IMG/VR virus record: IMGVR_UViG_3300021952_000043
Span: 1 to 21,970 of that record
From: a virus
Length of the DNA: 21,970 nucleotides
Direction: 5' to 3' (one strand)
A program made the position numbers and the translations under genes. A model generated the notes under the pieces. The model was not told where the DNA came from, ran no database searches, and saw only the letters and a list, made by a program, of their open reading frames with translations. This document shows positions 3,057 through 21,959 of the stretch, piece after piece; within the stretch, counting starts at the first letter, position 1, and every line of letters starts with the position of its first letter.

Positions 3057-3118
3057 GGTTGGATTTTCTTTCGGTTAAATGCCTAAGCAATTCATTTTAA
3101 TACCACATTTAGTAGGTG
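3057..3118 (-). promoter_or_regulatory. AT-rich intergenic leader before the giant gene
   Basis: This 62-base gap is 34% GC by hand count, in a genome whose other late-operon gaps are mostly 1-39 bases. On the minus strand it reads TGTGGTATTAAAATG, a weak extended -10-like element (TGnTATTAA), followed by an AT-rich leader to the ATG. There is no convincing -35 box and no Shine-Dalgarno sequence. I infer a possible separate promoter or translational leader for the giant gene. No terminator hairpin is visible. Confidence 0.3.
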
Positions 3119-13487: not shown

Positions 13488-13518
13488 AAAAAGAAAGGGG
13501 GCCACTAGGGCCCCCTTT
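13488..13518 (-). terminator. Rho-independent terminator after the major capsid gene
   Basis: The minus strand reads AAAGGGGGCC CTAGT GGCCCCCTTT, a perfect 10-base-pair stem with a five-base loop, followed by CTTTTTG. It begins 23 bases after the capsid stop codon. A terminator at this place corresponds to the Tphi terminator after gene 10 of T7 and would raise capsid mRNA relative to the tail genes, if it is leaky. Confidence 0.88.
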
Positions 13519-13540: not shown

Positions 13541-14665
13541 TTAGTCGACGATCGCCTGGTAGACGCCACAGCCCGAGAGCTGCTTGGCCACCATGCCGCC
13601 CGTCCAGGTCATCGCCTTGTAGATAACATACTTATCTTCGGGGCGAGCCGGGTTGTGGGTCTTCTTGTCTTCGCCGTCCATGACATACAGCTGGATCGCA
13701 TCGGTATCGATGAGATAGCAGAAGTTGGTCCGGGTGTTGTTGCCTTCCTCGCCGTCGACGTCGCCGTTCTGGGTCGGAGCGTAGCCGGGGAGGTCGTCCA
13801 GGGTGGGGTCGTAGACGAATTCACCGACGCCCAGGAGCTCGGTGGCGCCCATGCCGATCGTGTTCGTGCCCTTGGAGAAGCCGGTCATGGAGTAGAAGCC
13901 CTTGTTATGGATCTCCTTCTCCAGCAGCTCCAGGAAGCCAGAACCGCACAGGATGGTCGTCGGCTTGCCGCCGTAACGCTTCAGCTGTCGGATCTCCTTG
14001 CGGAGGCCATCGATGATGTTGGTCTGGCCGGCGACGTAGGCGAACTGGCCGGAGCGGTTACGCCACAGCGGGTTGGACGCGCGCGACAGGCCGCCGGTCG
14101 TGCCGACGGCGTTCAGATCGACAGTACCGCCGGTGATCTCAAGGCCGGGCTTGATGAAGCTGGACAGGCCGGGGACCTTCTTGGCGTCGGTCGTGCCGTC
14201 CTTCCAGAGCATCGTGTTGAAACCGCGGGCCCAGCCTTCGGTCATGTCGTCGAGCTTGGCCTTGAGGATGTTGGTCAGGACAGTAGCGTCACGGCCGCTG
14301 TGCTTGCTGGTATTCTCGCCGGTCACGGAGTCGGTGACGGAGATGCCGTCGATCTTGAGCTCGGTGAGGGTGACGGAAATACCGGCGTGGATTTCCTTCC
14401 AGGGGTAGAACACCCGGCGGGTGTTCTGCGGGTTGGAGTAGGAAACCTGGTCGTCGCCTTCGTAGCCGGAGATCGCGGGGAGCTCGGACTGGAAAGAGAC
14501 CGGGAGGGAGATGTCGCCCTTGCCGCCCGGGAAGGTCTGCTGGCGCTTGGTGAAGACGCCGATCAGGGGCTTTTCCTGGATGGTCTGCTTGAAGGCGTCG
14601 GACTTCACGTGGAAGTCGAGCGCCGAGGCGACGATGTGGTCGAGGGTGGAGAACGTGGAGGGCAT
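13541..14665 (-). CDS. Major capsid protein (374 aa)
   Basis: Position directly after a scaffold gene, size (T7 gp10A is 344 residues) and a following strong terminator all indicate the major capsid protein. The N-terminal region (LDHIVASALDFHVKSDAF, FTKRQQTFPGGKGDISLP) and a later section (LRKEIRQLKRYGGKPTTILC, GSGFLELLEKEI) show the mixed alpha/beta pattern of an HK97-fold capsid protein: an N-arm, an extended strand pair, then helix-rich A and P domains. I recognise it as capsid from context and general pattern more than from one diagnostic motif. It contains a 9-base-pair hairpin at 14407-14427. No Shine-Dalgarno sequence precedes the ATG. Confidence 0.85.
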   Translation of the reverse strand: MPSTFSTLDHIVASALDFHVKSDAFKQTIQEKPLIGVFTKRQQTFPGGKGDISLPVSFQSELPAISGYEGDDQVSYSNPQNTRRVFYPWKEIHAGISVTLTELKIDGISVTDSVTGENTSKHSGRDATVLTNILKAKLDDMTEGWARGFNTMLWKDGTTDAKKVPGLSSFIKPGLEITGGTVDLNAVGTTGGLSRASNPLWRNRSGQFAYVAGQTNIIDGLRKEIRQLKRYGGKPTTILCGSGFLELLEKEIHNKGFYSMTGFSKGTNTIGMGATELLGVGEFVYDPTLDDLPGYAPTQNGDVDGEEGNNTRTNFCYLIDTDAIQLYVMDGEDKKTHNPARPEDKYVIYKAMTWTGGMVAKQLSGCGVYQAIVD

Positions 14666-14689: not shown

Positions 14690-15769
14690 TTAGGAGCCTT
14701 GAAGGCCCATCCGGACCAGGTCCGCGAGGGACTTGGGAGCCGGGGATGCGGAAGCGGACGACAAAGAGCTGGCTGGGGTCCTGAGCGGCATCGTCCTCCC
14801 TGCCAACGGCCGTAGGCGCGCGTTCACGTCGGCCAGGGCGCGTTGTGCGATCTGGATTGCATCCGACGGATTGCGAGCTGGCTGTTGAGCTAGGAGAGCC
14901 TTCACCCGGTCCTGCACCATCTCGTATTTCTGGGACCAATCGGGATCCTTCGCCCGCTCTGCCTGTTCCCAACGCATCACAGCGGCGACCATCTGCTGGG
15001 AGTTGTCGGCCGCCTGTTGGCGGGCGATCATCTCCTGCTCAGCCTGGATGCGCTGCTGTTCTTCCATCTGACGGGCGTATGAAAACTCACGCTCGGCCTC
15101 AAGCTGCGCGAGGCGCTTCGCGGTCTCGGGATCGGTCAAGCCCTCATCGACCTTGGCCTTGAGCTCCGGGGGAAGTACGTCCCCCGTGAACCGGGCCAGG
15201 TTCTGGACATAACCCTGGAGCTGCTGGTAGGCGGCCGCCGGATTAGTCTTCATGAGAGCCATGACAGTCATGCCTTCGGCCATTTCCTGAGGGGTCAGGC
15301 CGTTGGTCTTCATGAATGTCGTGATCTTCCCGTACTGCTCAGCCGCCGGCTTCAAGCTTTCGCGTTCAGCGATCATCGCTTTCCATCGGGGATGGTTGTG
15401 GAACGGCAAGTCGGACTGCACTTCGGAGCCGTCCTTCTGCGCCTGGCTGTCCTTGCCAGGTGCATCGTTAGGCTGTCCCGGTGCGGGAGTCGACTGTACC
15501 TTCGCGGTGGACGGGTCCGCGGGATCCTTGGACTCAAACGCCGTTTTCACGACATCGAGCAGGCTTTCCTTCTTAGCGTCCTTGTCGGCCGCCGGTGACG
15601 AACTGGCAGCACTATCGTTTAGCGTCGGTGCGGTCTCCTGCCCCGTCCCGGTATCGGGGGTCGAAGACTGCGTGACCTCGGCCGGAGCCGAGATCGGTTC
15701 GGTTGTGGCCGGAGCGGACGAGGCTTCGGCGGGAGTAGTTAGCGTCGGGTTGTCCACAGCTCCGATCAT
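14690..15769 (-). CDS. Capsid assembly scaffolding protein (359 aa)
   Basis: The first 100 residues or so are Ser/Thr/Ala/Pro-rich and look disordered. A helical region follows (FHNHPRWKAMIAERESLK, LTPQEMAEGMTVMALMKTN), then a highly charged coiled coil at about 215-265 (LEAEREFSYARQMEEQQR), and a short basic/Ser-rich C-terminal tail (KSLADLVRMGLQGS) of the kind that contacts the capsid protein in other phages. Position between portal and capsid and this acidic, helical make-up are typical of scaffolds. The start ATG at 15769 sits in the loop of a perfect 12-base-pair hairpin, so translation may be controlled. FHNHP here is not a JAB motif. Confidence 0.82.
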   Translation of the reverse strand: MIGAVDNPTLTTPAEASSAPATTEPISAPAEVTQSSTPDTGTGQETAPTLNDSAASSSPAADKDAKKESLLDVVKTAFESKDPADPSTAKVQSTPAPGQPNDAPGKDSQAQKDGSEVQSDLPFHNHPRWKAMIAERESLKPAAEQYGKITTFMKTNGLTPQEMAEGMTVMALMKTNPAAAYQQLQGYVQNLARFTGDVLPPELKAKVDEGLTDPETAKRLAQLEAEREFSYARQMEEQQRIQAEQEMIARQQAADNSQQMVAAVMRWEQAERAKDPDWSQKYEMVQDRVKALLAQQPARNPSDAIQIAQRALADVNARLRPLAGRTMPLRTPASSLSSASASPAPKSLADLVRMGLQGS

Positions 15770-15784
15770 TCGTCGGAGCTGTGG
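15754..15784 (-). promoter_or_regulatory. 12-base-pair hairpin with the scaffold start codon in its loop
   Basis: The minus-strand RNA reads CCACAGCUCCGA, loop CGAAUGA, UCGGAGCUGUGG. All 12 pairs are perfect and the seven-base loop holds the AUG of the scaffold gene. No U-run follows, so it is not an intrinsic terminator. Such an arrangement could either hide the start or present it, and could be opened by ribosomes translating the portal gene upstream. Confidence 0.65.
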
Positions 15785-15803
15785 CTTTGCAATCCGGCCA
15801 CTT

Positions 15804-15818
15804 CCCCCTTATTGGGGG
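15804..15818 (-). other. Five-base-pair GC hairpin around the portal stop codon
   Basis: The minus-strand RNA reads CCCCC AAUAA GGGGG, with the portal's UAA stop inside the loop. It lies 20 bases before the larger hairpin at the scaffold start. The stem is short but all GC. It may pause or release ribosomes at the stop. Confidence 0.35.
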
Positions 15819-17938
15819 GGAGTCGGCAGCCCGTACATCTTTGGCTGAGGCATGTTGGGCACCTGGGGGTTGCCGCCGGCCGGGGCTCCTGGCGCAGCTG
15901 CTTCAGGCGCCGGCATGGGCGCGCCACCCTGGGCGGCCGGCCCGCCGGCCATCTGAGCCTCGCCCATCTGCTTCTGGGCGTTCTGCTGCACGATCGAGGG
16001 GATCGCCGCCTTGACCGCCTCGGCCAGGTCGATGCCGTCGTCCATGCGCTTGATCGCCTCCTTAGCCAGCCAGGTCGGATCTACGCCAGGGATCTGGATC
16101 AGAAGCGGAGCCAGGCGCTCGAAATTGCCGATCTCCGTGGCCTTGTTCGGGCGACCGGAACTGCCGGCCTCGATCTCCAGGTACAGCTCATCGGCGATCT
16201 CCTGGGCCGAAAGGGTCGGCCAGGACGCCCCAGGGCCGGCGATCTTGGTCGCCGTCATGGGGTCCATGTAGGTCAACAGGACCTGACCGGCTGCCTTGGC
16301 CAGATCGCTTAGGAATTCATCCAGGTCGTCGACATGGGAACCCAGGGAGCTCATTCGGCTGGACTCGGCAACCGAGACCTCGGTCGCCGTGTTGCCGGTG
16401 CCGCCGCCCAGGTTGGCTTCCTGGCTGCCGACAACGCGGAACAAGTCTTCCATCAGCATGGAGGTATCGTACAAGGTCGGGTCGATCGGGATCGGCTGCA
16501 TGGGCTGGATCACCTGGTTGACCGCCTGGCCGGGCTGGAGGCTGTTCAGCTGGATCACCTCGTTAGGCTGGCGATCCATGAGCTTCTTGACGTCATTCTC
16601 GGAAAGCATGCCGATCGGCGTGACGTACAGCGGGCGGTTCGCGTTCCGGTGTTCCCGGAGTCGCTGGCGCGCCAGGTTGTATTCCATCTGGATCGGCTTC
16701 AGGAGCCGGACGTCGGACGGAGGGTAGATGTCCCGGTCGTTCTCGACCTCGTTGAACAGGAGGCAGAAGAACGGCCAGAACCGGCGAAGCTTGATGTCCG
16801 GGCAGCTGGGCTCGACCAGGAAGTCAGGATAGCCGTCGGCGATCACATACTTCATGCCGTCCCGCTTGTTGTAGACCTCCCAGATCCGGGCCAGGTCGTC
16901 GGTCGTCTTCTCGGCCATGCCGGACTCCGTGAGCTTCTGTTCCTGGCGCGTGTAGGTCGTGCCCAGGTCGATCCCGTAGACCTCCTTCACCTCGTTACAG
17001 GTCAGGAGGAATTCCTGGGCGACCCATTCGGCGCCGATGAAGCCCTGGAGCTGCCGGCAACGCGTGTCCACGATGATGTTCTGGGACTGGGGGAAATCGA
17101 AGACCAGGCCTTCATCCGTGATCGTCTCGTTCTCCTTCTGCTGCTCGATCAGCTCCTTCATGAGCAACCGCAGCTGCTCTGCCTTGGCGTGGTTCTCGTC
17201 GAACTTCCCGTCCTTCTGATCGAGCTCCAGGCGCTCAAGGACGCGCAGCTGCTCGCTTACATCCGTGATCTTCTCGACATCCTCCGGGCGGTTGCCCAAC
17301 ACGCGGTGATAGCCGATCTTGACGAAGCCGACGCCGGTCACGCACACGCGACGGACCAGCTGCTTCATCTGGATCTTGAAATTCTGGTGCTCCAGGGTGT
17401 GCTTGAACACGATCTCCAGGGTCTCGGCCACCTTGTCCAGCTTGCGGCGCTTCTCGAAACCCTGCTGGACGTCCTGCATGAGCGCCATGGACGCCGGGTT
17501 CGGCATGCCCATGAACATCAGCGACTGATCGTTCGCCACCTTGGCCGACATCAGCTCGCTCGCGTTGCCCTCCCAGATCTGGAAATCCATCCCGCGCCGG
17601 CGCTTCGCCACGGCTTTCGGGTTCTTGGCGTAGAGCGCGGCCACGCGCGTCTGCACGTGGCGCTGCGCCAGGTTCGCCACGTAGCGGTCGTCGTCGCCGC
17701 GGTGGAAGGGCCACTGCTTGCCCATGTAGAAGTCGCTGTCCTCCTTCATCCGGCGGTGCGCGAGCTCCCAATGCTTCTTGGCGCGCATGATCTTGTCGGT
17801 CCATTCGCGCACGAGCGCGCGCCTGGAGGCCCGCAGATCCTCGTCAGGCTGGCGCTTGATCCCGGCCGGCCTGACCTCGCCCTCGGCGGCGTCGTCGGCG
17901 TCGTATTTGTCAGTCTCGATAGGTTCGTTGTTTTCCAT
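15809..17938 (-). CDS. Portal protein (709 aa)
   Basis: I place the start at the ATG at 17938 (MENNEPIETDKYDADDAAEG). A longer upstream reading with Arg/Ser-rich content only overlaps the small gene before it. The body shows portal-like sections: helical stem residues (REWTDKIMRAKKHWELAHRR), FYMGKQWPFHRGDDDRYVAN, the wing segment FKIQMKQLVRRVCVTGVGFV, and RQRLREHRNANRPLYV. The last 55 residues or so are Pro/Ala/Gly/Met-rich, probably a flexible barrel end. The length is near that of P22 portal (725) and above T7 gp8 (536). The portal is the dodecameric vertex ring that takes the terminase and later the adaptor. Position between terminase and scaffold agrees. The family call comes from order and overall pattern. 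Confidence 0.87.
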   Translation of the reverse strand: MENNEPIETDKYDADDAAEGEVRPAGIKRQPDEDLRASRRALVREWTDKIMRAKKHWELAHRRMKEDSDFYMGKQWPFHRGDDDRYVANLAQRHVQTRVAALYAKNPKAVAKRRRGMDFQIWEGNASELMSAKVANDQSLMFMGMPNPASMALMQDVQQGFEKRRKLDKVAETLEIVFKHTLEHQNFKIQMKQLVRRVCVTGVGFVKIGYHRVLGNRPEDVEKITDVSEQLRVLERLELDQKDGKFDENHAKAEQLRLLMKELIEQQKENETITDEGLVFDFPQSQNIIVDTRCRQLQGFIGAEWVAQEFLLTCNEVKEVYGIDLGTTYTRQEQKLTESGMAEKTTDDLARIWEVYNKRDGMKYVIADGYPDFLVEPSCPDIKLRRFWPFFCLLFNEVENDRDIYPPSDVRLLKPIQMEYNLARQRLREHRNANRPLYVTPIGMLSENDVKKLMDRQPNEVIQLNSLQPGQAVNQVIQPMQPIPIDPTLYDTSMLMEDLFRVVGSQEANLGGGTGNTATEVSVAESSRMSSLGSHVDDLDEFLSDLAKAAGQVLLTYMDPMTATKIAGPGASWPTLSAQEIADELYLEIEAGSSGRPNKATEIGNFERLAPLLIQIPGVDPTWLAKEAIKRMDDGIDLAEAVKAAIPSIVQQNAQKQMGEAQMAGGPAAQGGAPMPAPEAAAPGAPAGGNPQVPNMPQPKMYGLPTPPQ

Positions 17939-18215: not shown

Positions 18216-18228
18216 GGCGTGATGCTTA

Positions 18229-19800
18229 TCAGCTCCAGAACATCCGCAACCTGTTTTCGCCCCACTCCCTCATCTTGGAGGAGTGTTTGACCCAGGCCAG
18301 CGATCCGGTGCGAGGCCCCTTGGTCTCGCTGATCTTCGTCCCGGCCGGCACCTGGAGCGACAGCCCCATGCCGATATGGCTGATCCAGTCGACAAAGTCG
18401 TCATGCCGGGCCGACGGGAACTTCAGGAGCTCCAGCTGCGCGTCAGGCCACCAGGTCGTGAACTTTGGAAAGTAGACCTTGCCCATCGCCATGCGGCCGC
18501 GGATCGCCTGGGCGCGCGTCTGTTTGTCCTTGGCCGGGACGACCTCGTCGATCGCGCAGTAGATCCGCTCCTCCTGCATGCGCTTACGGAGGAACGGGCC
18601 GATCGCCTTCGTGATGTGGCCGTGTTCGGCCCACCAGAGCAGCGGCTTGTTGCGCCGGAATTGATCCAGGAGCCCGTCGCATACCGCGTCCGTCGCCGCC
18701 CGGCGCCAGAACAGGTCCGGCAGCACCCAGATGTTGTCGTCCTCGTCGATCCCGACGCAGCCCAGGCACGTCTTGTCCGCGTCCTGGGCGACCGAGACGG
18801 CGTGGTCCGACGCCCCGTAGATCCGCAGATTGGCCGGCAGCTGGCTCGGGTGATCGTAGGTTTTCAGCCAATCCCGCTTGAAATAGTCGCCATCATCCGG
18901 CGTCGGCTTGCCCTGGTACAGGGCCGAGAACCCCCTGGGGTTGATCCGGCGCTGGGCTTCCAGGACCGGCAGCGGGAACCGCTCCGGCCACAGGGCCTCG
19001 CCTGGCTTACGCCCCATGGCGTCGTCTTCGTCGGCGATCGCCGGCAAGGCCAGGATCTTCCAGCTGGAGGCTTCCTCGGCGTTAAAACACGGGTTCTTCG
19101 GATCCGTCAACCGGCCGATCAGATCGTCCTCATGCCAGCGCGTCATGATGATCACCACCCGGCCGCCAGGCATCAACCGCGTCATGGCCGCCTCGGTGAA
19201 CCAGGCCCAGAGCTTGTCCCGGAGGTTCTTGGAGTCCGCTTCCTCGCGGTCCTTGATCGGGTCGTCGATGATCAGGAGATCGGCGCCGCGGCCGGTAAGG
19301 CCGCCGCCACGGCCGACGAAGTTGAGCATCCCGCCTTCCTCGGTCTGGATCTTGTCGCTGGCCTGGCTGCCCGTCCGCAGCTTGCAGCCAGGGAAGATCT
19401 GCTGGAATTCCGGGGACCGCATGGTCGCGCGGACAGATCGGCCGAAGTCCTGGGCGAAGTCGTCGTTGTAGGTCGAGAAGATCAGCTGCCGGTACGGATC
19501 GCGCCCCATGAACCAGGCCGGGAAACGCCGGCTCGCTAGCTCGGACTTTCCGTGCCGCGGAGGCATCGTGATGATCAGCCTGGGCATGCGCCCGGCTTCC
19601 ACTTCCTCCAGGGCCGCGGCGATCACCTCGTGATGCTTCACCGGTTGATACCGGCTGCGCGAGGTGTCGTCCGGCGCCTCCGGATCAGGGATCGTGAACT
19701 TAGTGAAGCCGATCACGCTCTCGCGCGCCTTGCGCATGCGCAGCATGCGCTCGGCAGCCAGGAGCTGCTGAAGCATCTCATCTGGCTGTTCCTTCGGCAT
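18229..19800 (-). CDS. Terminase large subunit (ATPase-nuclease, 523 aa)
   Basis: The protein packages and cuts phage DNA, docked on the portal. I use the ATG at 19800, which overlaps the fiber stop as TGATG; a TTG four codons earlier is possible. The ATPase domain has a Walker A MPPRHGKSE at 79-87, a Walker B LLIIDD at 175-180 and a coupling motif TRWHEDDL at 220-227, the set typical of the PPRHGKSE terminase group. The RNase H-like nuclease domain shows ASDHAVS with D332, WWAEHG with E392 and HDDFVDW with D468-D471 as candidate metal ligands. All key residues appear intact. No small-subunit gene is seen in this window. Confidence 0.93.
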   Translation of the reverse strand: MPKEQPDEMLQQLLAAERMLRMRKARESVIGFTKFTIPDPEAPDDTSRSRYQPVKHHEVIAAALEEVEAGRMPRLIITMPPRHGKSELASRRFPAWFMGRDPYRQLIFSTYNDDFAQDFGRSVRATMRSPEFQQIFPGCKLRTGSQASDKIQTEEGGMLNFVGRGGGLTGRGADLLIIDDPIKDREEADSKNLRDKLWAWFTEAAMTRLMPGGRVVIIMTRWHEDDLIGRLTDPKNPCFNAEEASSWKILALPAIADEDDAMGRKPGEALWPERFPLPVLEAQRRINPRGFSALYQGKPTPDDGDYFKRDWLKTYDHPSQLPANLRIYGASDHAVSVAQDADKTCLGCVGIDEDDNIWVLPDLFWRRAATDAVCDGLLDQFRRNKPLLWWAEHGHITKAIGPFLRKRMQEERIYCAIDEVVPAKDKQTRAQAIRGRMAMGKVYFPKFTTWWPDAQLELLKFPSARHDDFVDWISHIGMGLSLQVPAGTKISETKGPRTGSLAWVKHSSKMREWGENRLRMFWS

Positions 19801-21959
19801 CAGATCACCCAATCGTTCAACCCGACTTTCACCAGATGCGCGACCTTCTGCTGGATGTAGAACGTCATGCCGCTTCCGTTGATGTTAACTCCCATCCCCG
19901 GATTGATCGGGATCTGGTTCATGGAGTCGCCACCCGTGATCATGACAACCGAACCGATGGCGGCGTCCAACGTGGGCGACTCAGGAAGATACAGGCCGCC
20001 CCAGCCACCGATACCAGGAGCGTGGATGATGTTGTTCATGTCCGACAGCTGGATCGTGTATGACGAATAAGGTGCGCTCTGATCGTTGAGTGTTTTTGCC
20101 GGAGAGCCGGCTGGGCCTTGCGGGCCCTGGGGGCCTGGATCTCCTTGCGGACCAGGAGGGCCACCAGGCGTTCCGGCCTCACCCTGCGGGCCTTGAGGGC
20201 CCGTCGGACCCGGATCGCCCTGGATCCCCTGGGGACCGGTCTCGCCGGTAGCCGCCGAGGTGATCTGCACCCAGGAGCTCATCACGTCACCAGGCGGCGG
20301 CGTTCCATATCCCTGATACGCCGAGCTCATCCAGGCGTAGCCGCCGTAGACGACGACATCCATGGGAACGTAGGTTTGATAATTATCCCACACGCCCCTG
20401 AACACAGTCCCCGTGCCGTTTGCGCCCGTTGCACCGGTAGCGCCCTGGATCCCCTGCGGGCCCTGATCACCCTTGCTTACGACCAACGTCCAGCTACCAG
20501 GGTAGCTGACCGGATCGTAGCCGGCCGCGCCGATGAAGCTTGTCATGACATACGCGCTGCCATCGAACGTGACCGCGTCGCCGACGACGTAGGTCACGCC
20601 ATTGTCGTACGCGCCCAGGTAATTGAACAACATCGAGCCGTTGGTTCCAGGCGGGCCGGCATCGCCTTGCGGGCCGGGATCTCCCGTAGGTCCCTGGATC
20701 CCCTGGGGGCCTTCAGGCCCCTGGATACCTTGATCACCTTGGATCCCTTGGATCCCCTGATCGCCTTGCGGCCCCTGGGCTCCCTGAGGCCCCTGCGGGC
20801 CTTGAGGACCGGTATCTCCGGTGTCGCCTTTAGGTCCCTGGGCGCCTGTCGCTCCGGTGGCCCCGGTAGCGCCTTGAGGGCCCGTAGCCCCTTGCGGCCC
20901 TTGAGGGCCTGTAGCCCCGGTAGCCCCCGTGGCTCCCGTGTCGCCTTTAGGCCCTTGCGGCCCGGTAGCGCCCGTTGCACCCTGGGGACCGGTTGCTCCC
21001 GTAGGGCCGGCAGGGCCCGTTGCCCCCGTGGCTCCGGTCGCTCCCGTCGGACCGGCCGGTCCCTGGGCGCCGATCGCGCCTTCCAGGTTGATCGTCCAGC
21101 TGGTGTGCGTTCCGTTGCCGGTGTGGTTGCTCACTTCGACAACCAACACGCCGGTCGAGCTGTTGTAACTCGTCACAACGCCATGCATGTGGTTGCTGGC
21201 GTCGTAGACGATCGTCAGATCCTGCTGGCTGGTCCACGCCAGGCCGGTCTGCGTGGTCAGGGTCTTGGTTCCGTTGCTGACTGTCAGGCTGGTCGTCGAC
21301 GTTCCCGCGTATTTGTCGCCCTGGGGACCTTGCGGACCCGTAGGCCCTTGCGGGCCGGTGGCTCCGGTTGCTCCTTGAGCCCCTTGTGGCCCCGTAGGCC
21401 CCGCCGGGCCTGTCGCTCCCGTGGCTCCCGTAGCCCCCTGGGGGCCCGTTGCGCCGGTCGGACCGGCTACGCCTTGGGGGCCTTGTGGTCCCGTAGGTCC
21501 AGCCGGGCCTGTAAGGCCGGTTGCACCGGTCGCACCGGTCGCACCCGTGTCACCTTTGTCGCCTTTTAGGCCTCGTGGGCCCGTGGCGCCCGTGGCACCC
21601 GTAGGACCGGTCGCTCCGGTTTCGCCTTGGATACCCTGGACGCCCTGAATTCCTTGTTGGCCTTGCACACCAGGCACACCTTGTGGGCCTTGTGATCCGG
21701 TATTTCCCTTGTCGCCTTTGTCGCCCTTGGGACCAGGCGGCCCGACAGGGCCGACAGTCAATTCTACCGCGGTTTGACGCACCTTTCCGTCGTCTCGCTG
21801 GATCTCGCCAAGCCGGTTGATGGTTGCGTTAAGAGACTCGCGGATCTCGTTAAGCTCCAGGTCGATCTTGTTGCCCGGTTGCGGCGCGTTCGGGTTGGTA
21901 ATTGAGTGATTTGAGAAGTCGTATTGACGCTCGTAGGGATCGGGCGGCGATGTTGGCAT
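19800..21959 (-). CDS. Collagen-like receptor-binding fiber with carbohydrate-binding-type domains (719 aa)
   Basis: The N-terminal 69 residues ([33 protein letters not shown]) are an attachment domain of the kind found on many phage tail fibers. Two uninterrupted Gly-X-Y collagen blocks of 49 triplets follow (70-216 and 294-440), split by a beta domain at 217-293. Two similar domains with YxxGDxVxYxGxxY patterns, at about 441-495 and 513-567, resemble CBM5/12-type carbohydrate-binding modules. A further Gly-X-Y section and a beta-rich C-terminal domain (619-719) ending VGLNDWVI complete the protein. It probably forms a trimeric adhesin that binds host surface glycans. Placement before the terminase gene is unusual. 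Confidence 0.85.
20640..21080 (-). repeat. Collagen block 2: 49 Gly-X-Y triplets (residues 294-440)
   Basis: Every third residue is Gly from [10 protein letters not shown] to GPPGTN without a break. GAT, GPQ, GDT and GIQ triplets dominate. The DNA is therefore a 9-base quasi-repeat, with exact longer repeats prone to slippage. Confidence 0.85.
21312..21752 (-). repeat. Collagen block 1: 49 Gly-X-Y triplets (residues 70-216)
   Basis: Uninterrupted Gly-X-Y from [10 protein letters not shown] to GPQGDK. It is the same length as block 2, with lysine-bearing GPK/GDK triplets near its ends and middle. Confidence 0.85.

Follow-up and report, generated by a model that had tools for sequence, protein, structure and literature searches.

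The window analyzed here is a 22-kb fragment of an uncultured tailed phage (21,970 nucleotides; IMG/VR record IMGVR_UViG_3300021952_000043), and this report concerns the junction on its minus strand between the portal gene and the gene in the scaffold position, called the scaffold gene below. Judging from the sequences of the window and its relatives, the junction is best read as a sigma70-type promoter for a leaderless scaffold-capsid mRNA that terminates past the capsid gene. In the window's near clade (11 aligned sequences, comprising 7 distinct variants), a perfect 12-bp hairpin overlaps this promoter. We propose, with a probability of roughly 0.55, that this hairpin silences RNA reading through from the portal gene while the local leaderless promoter expresses scaffold. 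The hairpin, its covariation, the promoter layout, the homology of the GUG start codon, and the terminator past the capsid gene can be read directly from the sequence. The elements of the junction are as follows.

15804 to 15820, minus strand: GC hairpin CCCCC-CCAAUAA-GGGGG with the portal stop codon UAA in its loop; its noncoding arm is invariant in the near clade
15787 to 15792, minus strand: -35 box TTGCAA of the predicted scaffold promoter
15771 to 15786, minus strand: 16-bp promoter spacer, mostly the 5' arm of the stem
15773 to 15784, minus strand: 5' arm of the 12-bp stem, CCACAGCTCCGA, a perfect inverted repeat with 15765-15754
15766 to 15772, minus strand: hairpin loop CGAATGA, 7 nucleotides (nt)
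15765 to 15770, minus strand: predicted -10 box AATGAT (AAAGAT or GAAGAT in relatives), which holds the loop AUG
15767 to 15769, minus strand: in-frame AUG in the loop, unconserved
15754 to 15765, minus strand: 3' arm of the 12-bp stem, TCGGAGCTGTGG, which includes the GUG start codon
15757 to 15758, minus strand: predicted transcription start, leaderless or with a one-base leader, placed by -10 spacing (7 nt from the end of the -10 box to GTG)
15755 to 15757, minus strand: GUG, most likely the true scaffold start

Promoter layout at the portal-scaffold junction

To obtain a comparison set, we scanned viral contigs with the portal, which returned 78 relatives, and added more through alignment scans with the capsid, portal, and scaffold. 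Promoter counts were made over 45 non-redundant portal-scaffold junctions. The layout TTGNNN-N16/17-xAxxxT, ending 5 to 8 nt before the start codon, was observed in 40 of these junctions; shuffled upstream regions gave a mean of 0.5 and a maximum of 3. At control starts on the same contigs, the layout preceded 0 of 60 capsid, 0 of 57 terminase, and 2 of 44 adaptor genes. The TTG alone lies at -34 to -37 of the start codon in 43 of the 45 junctions. Among GTG-type junctions, the start codon falls 34 to 51 nt past the portal stop, and TTG sits at -34 or -35 in nearly all of them. Since the distance of the box to the start codon is fixed while its distance to the portal stop varies, the box appears to be tied to the former and not the latter. 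Within the -10 box, the A at position 2 and the T at position 6 are invariant in 23 aligned GTG-type junctions (both were required for alignment), and positions 1 and 3 to 5 vary. The gap from the -10 box to the start codon, 7 nt in the window and 5 to 8 nt in the same 40 junctions, places the start codon at the predicted +1. We conclude that the junction is likely a sigma70-type promoter with a leaderless GUG start for scaffold.

It could be argued that there is no promoter here at all, that the TTG and the A/T-rich box are kept for some other reason, and that scaffold is translated from the long message alone. Such a view would fit the -10 box of the window, AATGAT, which is a weak match; a strict consensus promoter scan, which found none in the junction region; and the whole genome, which is poor in Shine-Dalgarno (SD) sites. 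We regard it as highly improbable, given that across clades the boxes keep their distance to the start codon whatever the position of the portal stop, that a like layout precedes the collagen-like gene described below, and that distant relatives carry a similar element with a longer SD leader. An N4-type hairpin promoter was also considered for this junction because the loop is centered about 12 nt before the predicted start; we rejected it, since the promoter persists in other clades that have no such hairpin.

Position of the scaffold start codon

A previous, sequence-only reading of this DNA placed the scaffold start at the AUG in the hairpin loop and reported no SD sequence nearby. Indeed, no SD sequence adjoins this AUG in the window. 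However, the AUG itself is found only in the window, L002, and L007 among the 11 aligned near-clade sequences; the other 8 of the 11 have AAG at this position, with no upstream ATG, GTG, or TTG in the scaffold frame. The GUG in the 3' arm opens the peptide M-DNPTLT, which aligns with the starts of the next clades, M-SETLN (GTG AGC GAG ACG CTA AAT) and M-EETLN. Because most near-clade sequences have AAG at the loop AUG and the homologous GUG is common to all, we rejected the loop AUG as the scaffold start; the start is most likely the GUG at 15757-15755, within the 3' arm, and the loop AUG is most likely part of the -10 box. Gene callers would misplace the scaffold start, in the window at the AUG of the -10 box.

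The same comparison bears on the possibility that the portal-scaffold message is controlled by a translational switch or a protein-binding hairpin with the scaffold AUG in its loop. The three sequences with an in-frame loop AUG would allow this, but the replacement by AAG with no substitute start upstream, the homologous GUG in the stem, and a promoter that accounts for the AUG as part of its -10 box make it very improbable.

Conservation of the 12-bp stem

Both hairpins described in the sequence-only reading are present: the 5-bp GC stem with the portal UAA in its loop (15820-15804) and, after a gap of 19 nt, the perfect 12-bp stem with an AUG in its loop, although that AUG does not hold as the scaffold start. 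That reading also judged a 12-pair stem unlikely to arise by chance, and our counts agree. No other perfect repeat of at least 12 bp with a 3- to 10-nt loop occurs in the window, and shuffling that preserved dinucleotides produced such a repeat in 0 of 60 sequences; for repeats of at least 10 bp, 3 were observed versus 0.22 expected. The local RNA folding energy is -23.4 kcal/mol (z = -6.2), and the stem energy across the near clade ranges from -22 to -25 kcal/mol.

The covariation in related phages that the sequence-only reading had looked to is found within the near clade, as compensatory changes at two pairs. All 84 of 84 pair cells are standard pairs and all 7 distinct variants hold 12 of 12 pairs, compared with 26 to 39% of cells paired in slid-alignment controls. 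Both-sided changes occur at two stem pairs (G-C/A-U and A-U/U-A), and a third variable pair (G-C/G.U) shows a one-sided change, with the G.U on the mRNA strand. Of 500 shuffles, 2 reached the covariation score of the stem. When mapped on the scaffold-gene tree, the U-A/A-U pair requires at least two separate compensated changes, a count that recombination could reduce, and few events are sampled, with nine of the twelve pairs invariant. These results support the view that the stem is under selection, with pairing preserved through double changes. The noncoding arm of the 5-bp GC hairpin shows no variation in the near clade, and covariation is therefore uninformative for that hairpin.

Two further observations concern the surroundings of the stem. 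Just past the portal gene, TAAGGGGGAAGTG (15799-15811, minus strand) does not vary among the ten near-clade sequences that extend over it, though it is mostly noncoding; its AAGGGGG, about 45 nt upstream of the GUG, could pair with the anti-SD sequence. On the antisense strand (15740-15800, plus strand), the predicted fold is even more stable than that of the sense strand, and a G-U pair lengthens the stem on its outer side; there is no evident antisense gene.

Outside the near clade we found no equivalent strong stem. Some other clades have weaker, differently placed repeats near the -35 box and spacer, others have none, and a family-wide hairpin was therefore rejected. At the L113/L114, L020/L022, and L088 junctions, differing inverted repeats overlap the -35 box and spacer of the scaffold promoter and could be operators; L020 and L022 show a compensated change there (AATAGA/TCTATT versus GATAGA/TCTATC). 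A DNA pattern scan with GGNTTGCAAAGCCAC for further near relatives returned, among the matches listed, only unrelated contigs and already-known sequences. In L087 the upstream pattern matched, yet the sequence is unrelated.

The main rival to read-through silencing treats the inverted repeat as a DNA operator: its dyad, over the spacer, -10 box, and +1, would be bound by a dimeric protein of the phage or its host that regulates the scaffold promoter, and the RNA fold would be incidental. The dyad spans exactly the core promoter, the compensated changes preserve it as they do the RNA helix, and the repeats of other clades, TAATAGA-GCTTGA-TCTATTA (L020) and CTTTGTC...GACAAAG (L114), lie around the -35 box and spacer. 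In 5 of the 7 variants, however, the dyad is broken by the change at one position that leaves a G.U on the mRNA strand, symmetry being otherwise kept. Because this G.U breaks the DNA dyad, it favors an RNA over an operator, though at a single position. Repeated half-sites, looked for in the genome, were not in excess elsewhere in the window, and a relaxed pattern occurred at only 2 other places in the 44-kb relative. The repeats of other clades differ in sequence and position, and many clades have none. On this evidence, we consider an operator unlikely.

The stem might also stabilize or help process the RNA at the 3' end of portal or the 5' end of scaffold (for instance as an exonuclease block or cleavage site) without hiding the start. 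We found no U-tract 3' of the stem, where CTGTGG is followed by ACAACCC, and no match to an Rfam family at gathering score in the window. An intrinsic terminator at this stem was rejected for the missing U-tract and because the stem is not among the terminator-scan results. A stabilizing role would suit a stable stem just past a stop codon, and short hairpins follow the portal stop in some other clades too. Besides the lack of a U-tract and of an Rfam match, it is rendered improbable by the coincidence of the stem end with the start codon, which a stabilizer would not need, and by the many clades without any hairpin at the junction. Nor did we find anything for a binding site for scaffold or coat protein, or an RNA cleavage site, both put forward in the sequence-only reading; besides the Rfam result, there is no conservation outside the near clade.

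Proposed silencing of read-through RNA

In the window's clade, the promoter DNA would also specify the 12-bp RNA hairpin. With its -35 box TTGCAA, 16-bp spacer, and -10 box AATGAT, the promoter predicts an RNA that starts at, or one base before, the GUG; its spacer would provide the 5' arm and its -10 region the loop, and the 3' arm would end on the GUG. The 5' arm (15784-15773) lies upstream of the predicted +1 (15758/15757), so that the hairpin would form only in read-through RNA. RNA reading through from the portal gene would contain both arms, fold, and hide the GUG, whereas RNA from the local promoter, without the 5' arm, would carry a free GUG at its 5' end and be translated. Portal messages would then make no scaffold, and the dose of scaffold and capsid would be set by their own promoter. 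The steps that we infer in this scheme are the transcription start, leaderless translation, and the silencing of read-through RNA.

A folding model of read-through RNA gave every near-clade representative a probability of 0.00 that the GUG is unpaired; for other clades the median was 0.38. The stem begins 24 nt past the portal stop and, from the size of the ribosome footprint, probably stays folded while ribosomes terminate there. The translational switch suggested by the sequence-only reading thus survives in part: the stem appears selected and overlaps the scaffold translation start, which makes an on/off role plausible, but the start would lie in the 3' arm and not in the loop. That reading also suggested that the switch could set the scaffold-to-portal ratio, but it overlooked the family-wide promoter and the predicted leaderless start; transcription of scaffold and capsid as a unit of their own accounts for the ratio more simply.

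Several points weigh against read-through silencing. The folding model leaves the GUG only 18% unpaired even in the predicted leaderless RNA. A GUG at the RNA 5' end is functional in mycobacteria but poor in E. coli (PMC4633059). The compensated pairs would be equally expected of a DNA dyad. The promoter pattern was chosen after viewing the junctions and then counted on them, so the gene controls and shuffles, which are clear, matter; to this are added the weak -10 match and the empty consensus scan described above. Finally, the start-hiding hairpin is limited to the near clade, and because most other clades leave the start partly free, hiding is not generally needed.

More broadly, we see about an even chance that late structural genes in this phage lineage are expressed from leaderless promoters, that one clade folded a read-through silencer into the promoter itself, and that the RNA 5' end alone decides scaffold translation. 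If such a silencer lies in the promoter, the same bases must serve both RNA polymerase and an RNA helix.

Predicted leaderless start and transcription unit

The minus strand of the window carries terminase, a 91-amino-acid (aa) open reading frame (ORF), portal, the scaffold-position gene, capsid, and adaptor. The genes and signals relevant to the transcription unit, with two further candidate promoters, are listed below.

15809 to 17938, minus strand: portal gene (P22-type portal), stop UAA at 15811-15809; assigned by PHROG 156 (E = 2.9e-13), PF16510 (8e-11), and relatives
14690 to 15757, minus strand: scaffold-position gene, 355 aa, between portal and capsid; relatives 29 to 91% identical
13541 to 14665, minus strand: major capsid gene (PHROG 9953, E = 8.5e-34)
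13494 to 13518, minus strand: intrinsic terminator 3' of capsid, with a 10-bp stem and a T-rich tail
18222 to 18249, minus strand: second candidate promoter of like layout, before the 91-aa ORF upstream of portal; a weaker case
3063 to 3090, minus strand: third candidate promoter of like layout, before a 1018-aa ORF

The product of the scaffold-position gene has no Pfam match and no PHROG match. Directly past the capsid stop, the terminator is near-perfect (AAAGGGGGCCCTAGTGGCCCCCTTTCTTTTTG), and with it scaffold and capsid would form one unit. The candidate promoter at 18222-18249 overlaps the end of the terminase gene, and coding constraint may therefore contribute to its sequence.

SD pairing at the scaffold starts is weak (median, -0.8 kcal/mol; -5 or lower in 4 of 45), and most genes of the phage are SD-poor. 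Across the window, most gene starts are without an SD sequence, and several have AAC or ACC directly before ATG. Six distant relatives do have an SD sequence (-6.0 to -12.2): a Microcystis phage, a Rhizobium phage, three loci in Rhizobiales genomes, and L118. In five of the six, the promoter-like element ends at least 20 nt before the start. Given this SD sequence and longer distance in the distant relatives, the window's family appears to have lost the scaffold leader. Loci with related portals are present in Rhizobiales genomes, which suggests an alphaproteobacterial host. Leaderless mRNAs are common in alphaproteobacteria and account for 9.6% of Caulobacter coding genes, where they are translated as well as others (PMC4117421).

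Upstream of terminase, the window encodes a collagen-like (Gly-X-Y) protein of 719 aa (19800-21959, minus strand). Ahead of the collagen-like gene, 11 of 18 relatives show the scaffold-promoter layout, and CTTGC-N-CACTAT-6 nt-ATG is conserved there, for example in L034, L042, L046, and L078, as another likely leaderless promoter.

Comparison with known systems

Portal protein is needed in about a dozen copies per capsid, and scaffold and capsid proteins are needed in hundreds. If read-through silencing holds, this phage separates portal dose from scaffold and capsid dose through one short element. Scaffold autoregulation is known in P22, as the sequence-only reading noted. The present case resembles it in that the portal is of P22 type and the expression of scaffold is at issue, and differs in showing no sign of a protein that binds the RNA. 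Our literature search found no report of a leaderless phage scaffold with a read-through hairpin.

In T4 gene e (and also soc, 49, and I-TevI), a hairpin that encloses a late promoter keeps early read-through mRNA silent; the long upstream transcripts alone fold, with the start region in the 3' strand, and RNAs from the late promoter are without the 5' part of the inhibitory structure (PMC3014915). In T4, the mRNAs have leaders, the hidden element is their SD sequence and/or AUG, and transcription is from a T4 late promoter; the window instead has a sigma70-like promoter before a scaffold gene whose start codon lies at the predicted 5' end of the RNA. B. subtilis sigG, which is read through from the spoIIG promoter, likewise has a GUG start and a hairpin of 20+ bp that is proposed to block read-through translation and cannot form in RNA from its own promoter (PMC5942855). 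It differs in having a leader with a ribosome-binding site, in being a bacterial gene, and in its longer stem (PMC5942855). The leaderless mRNAs of Caulobacter (PMC4117421) and mycobacteria (PMC4633059) share an RNA 5' end at or next to the AUG or GUG and need no SD sequence; they are cellular genes with mapped ends, whereas the window holds a predicted case in a phage structural operon. If our proposal is true, the principle of T4 gene e would extend to leaderless translation, and the junction would offer compact, testable parts for read-through RNA silencing in hosts that use leaderless mRNAs.
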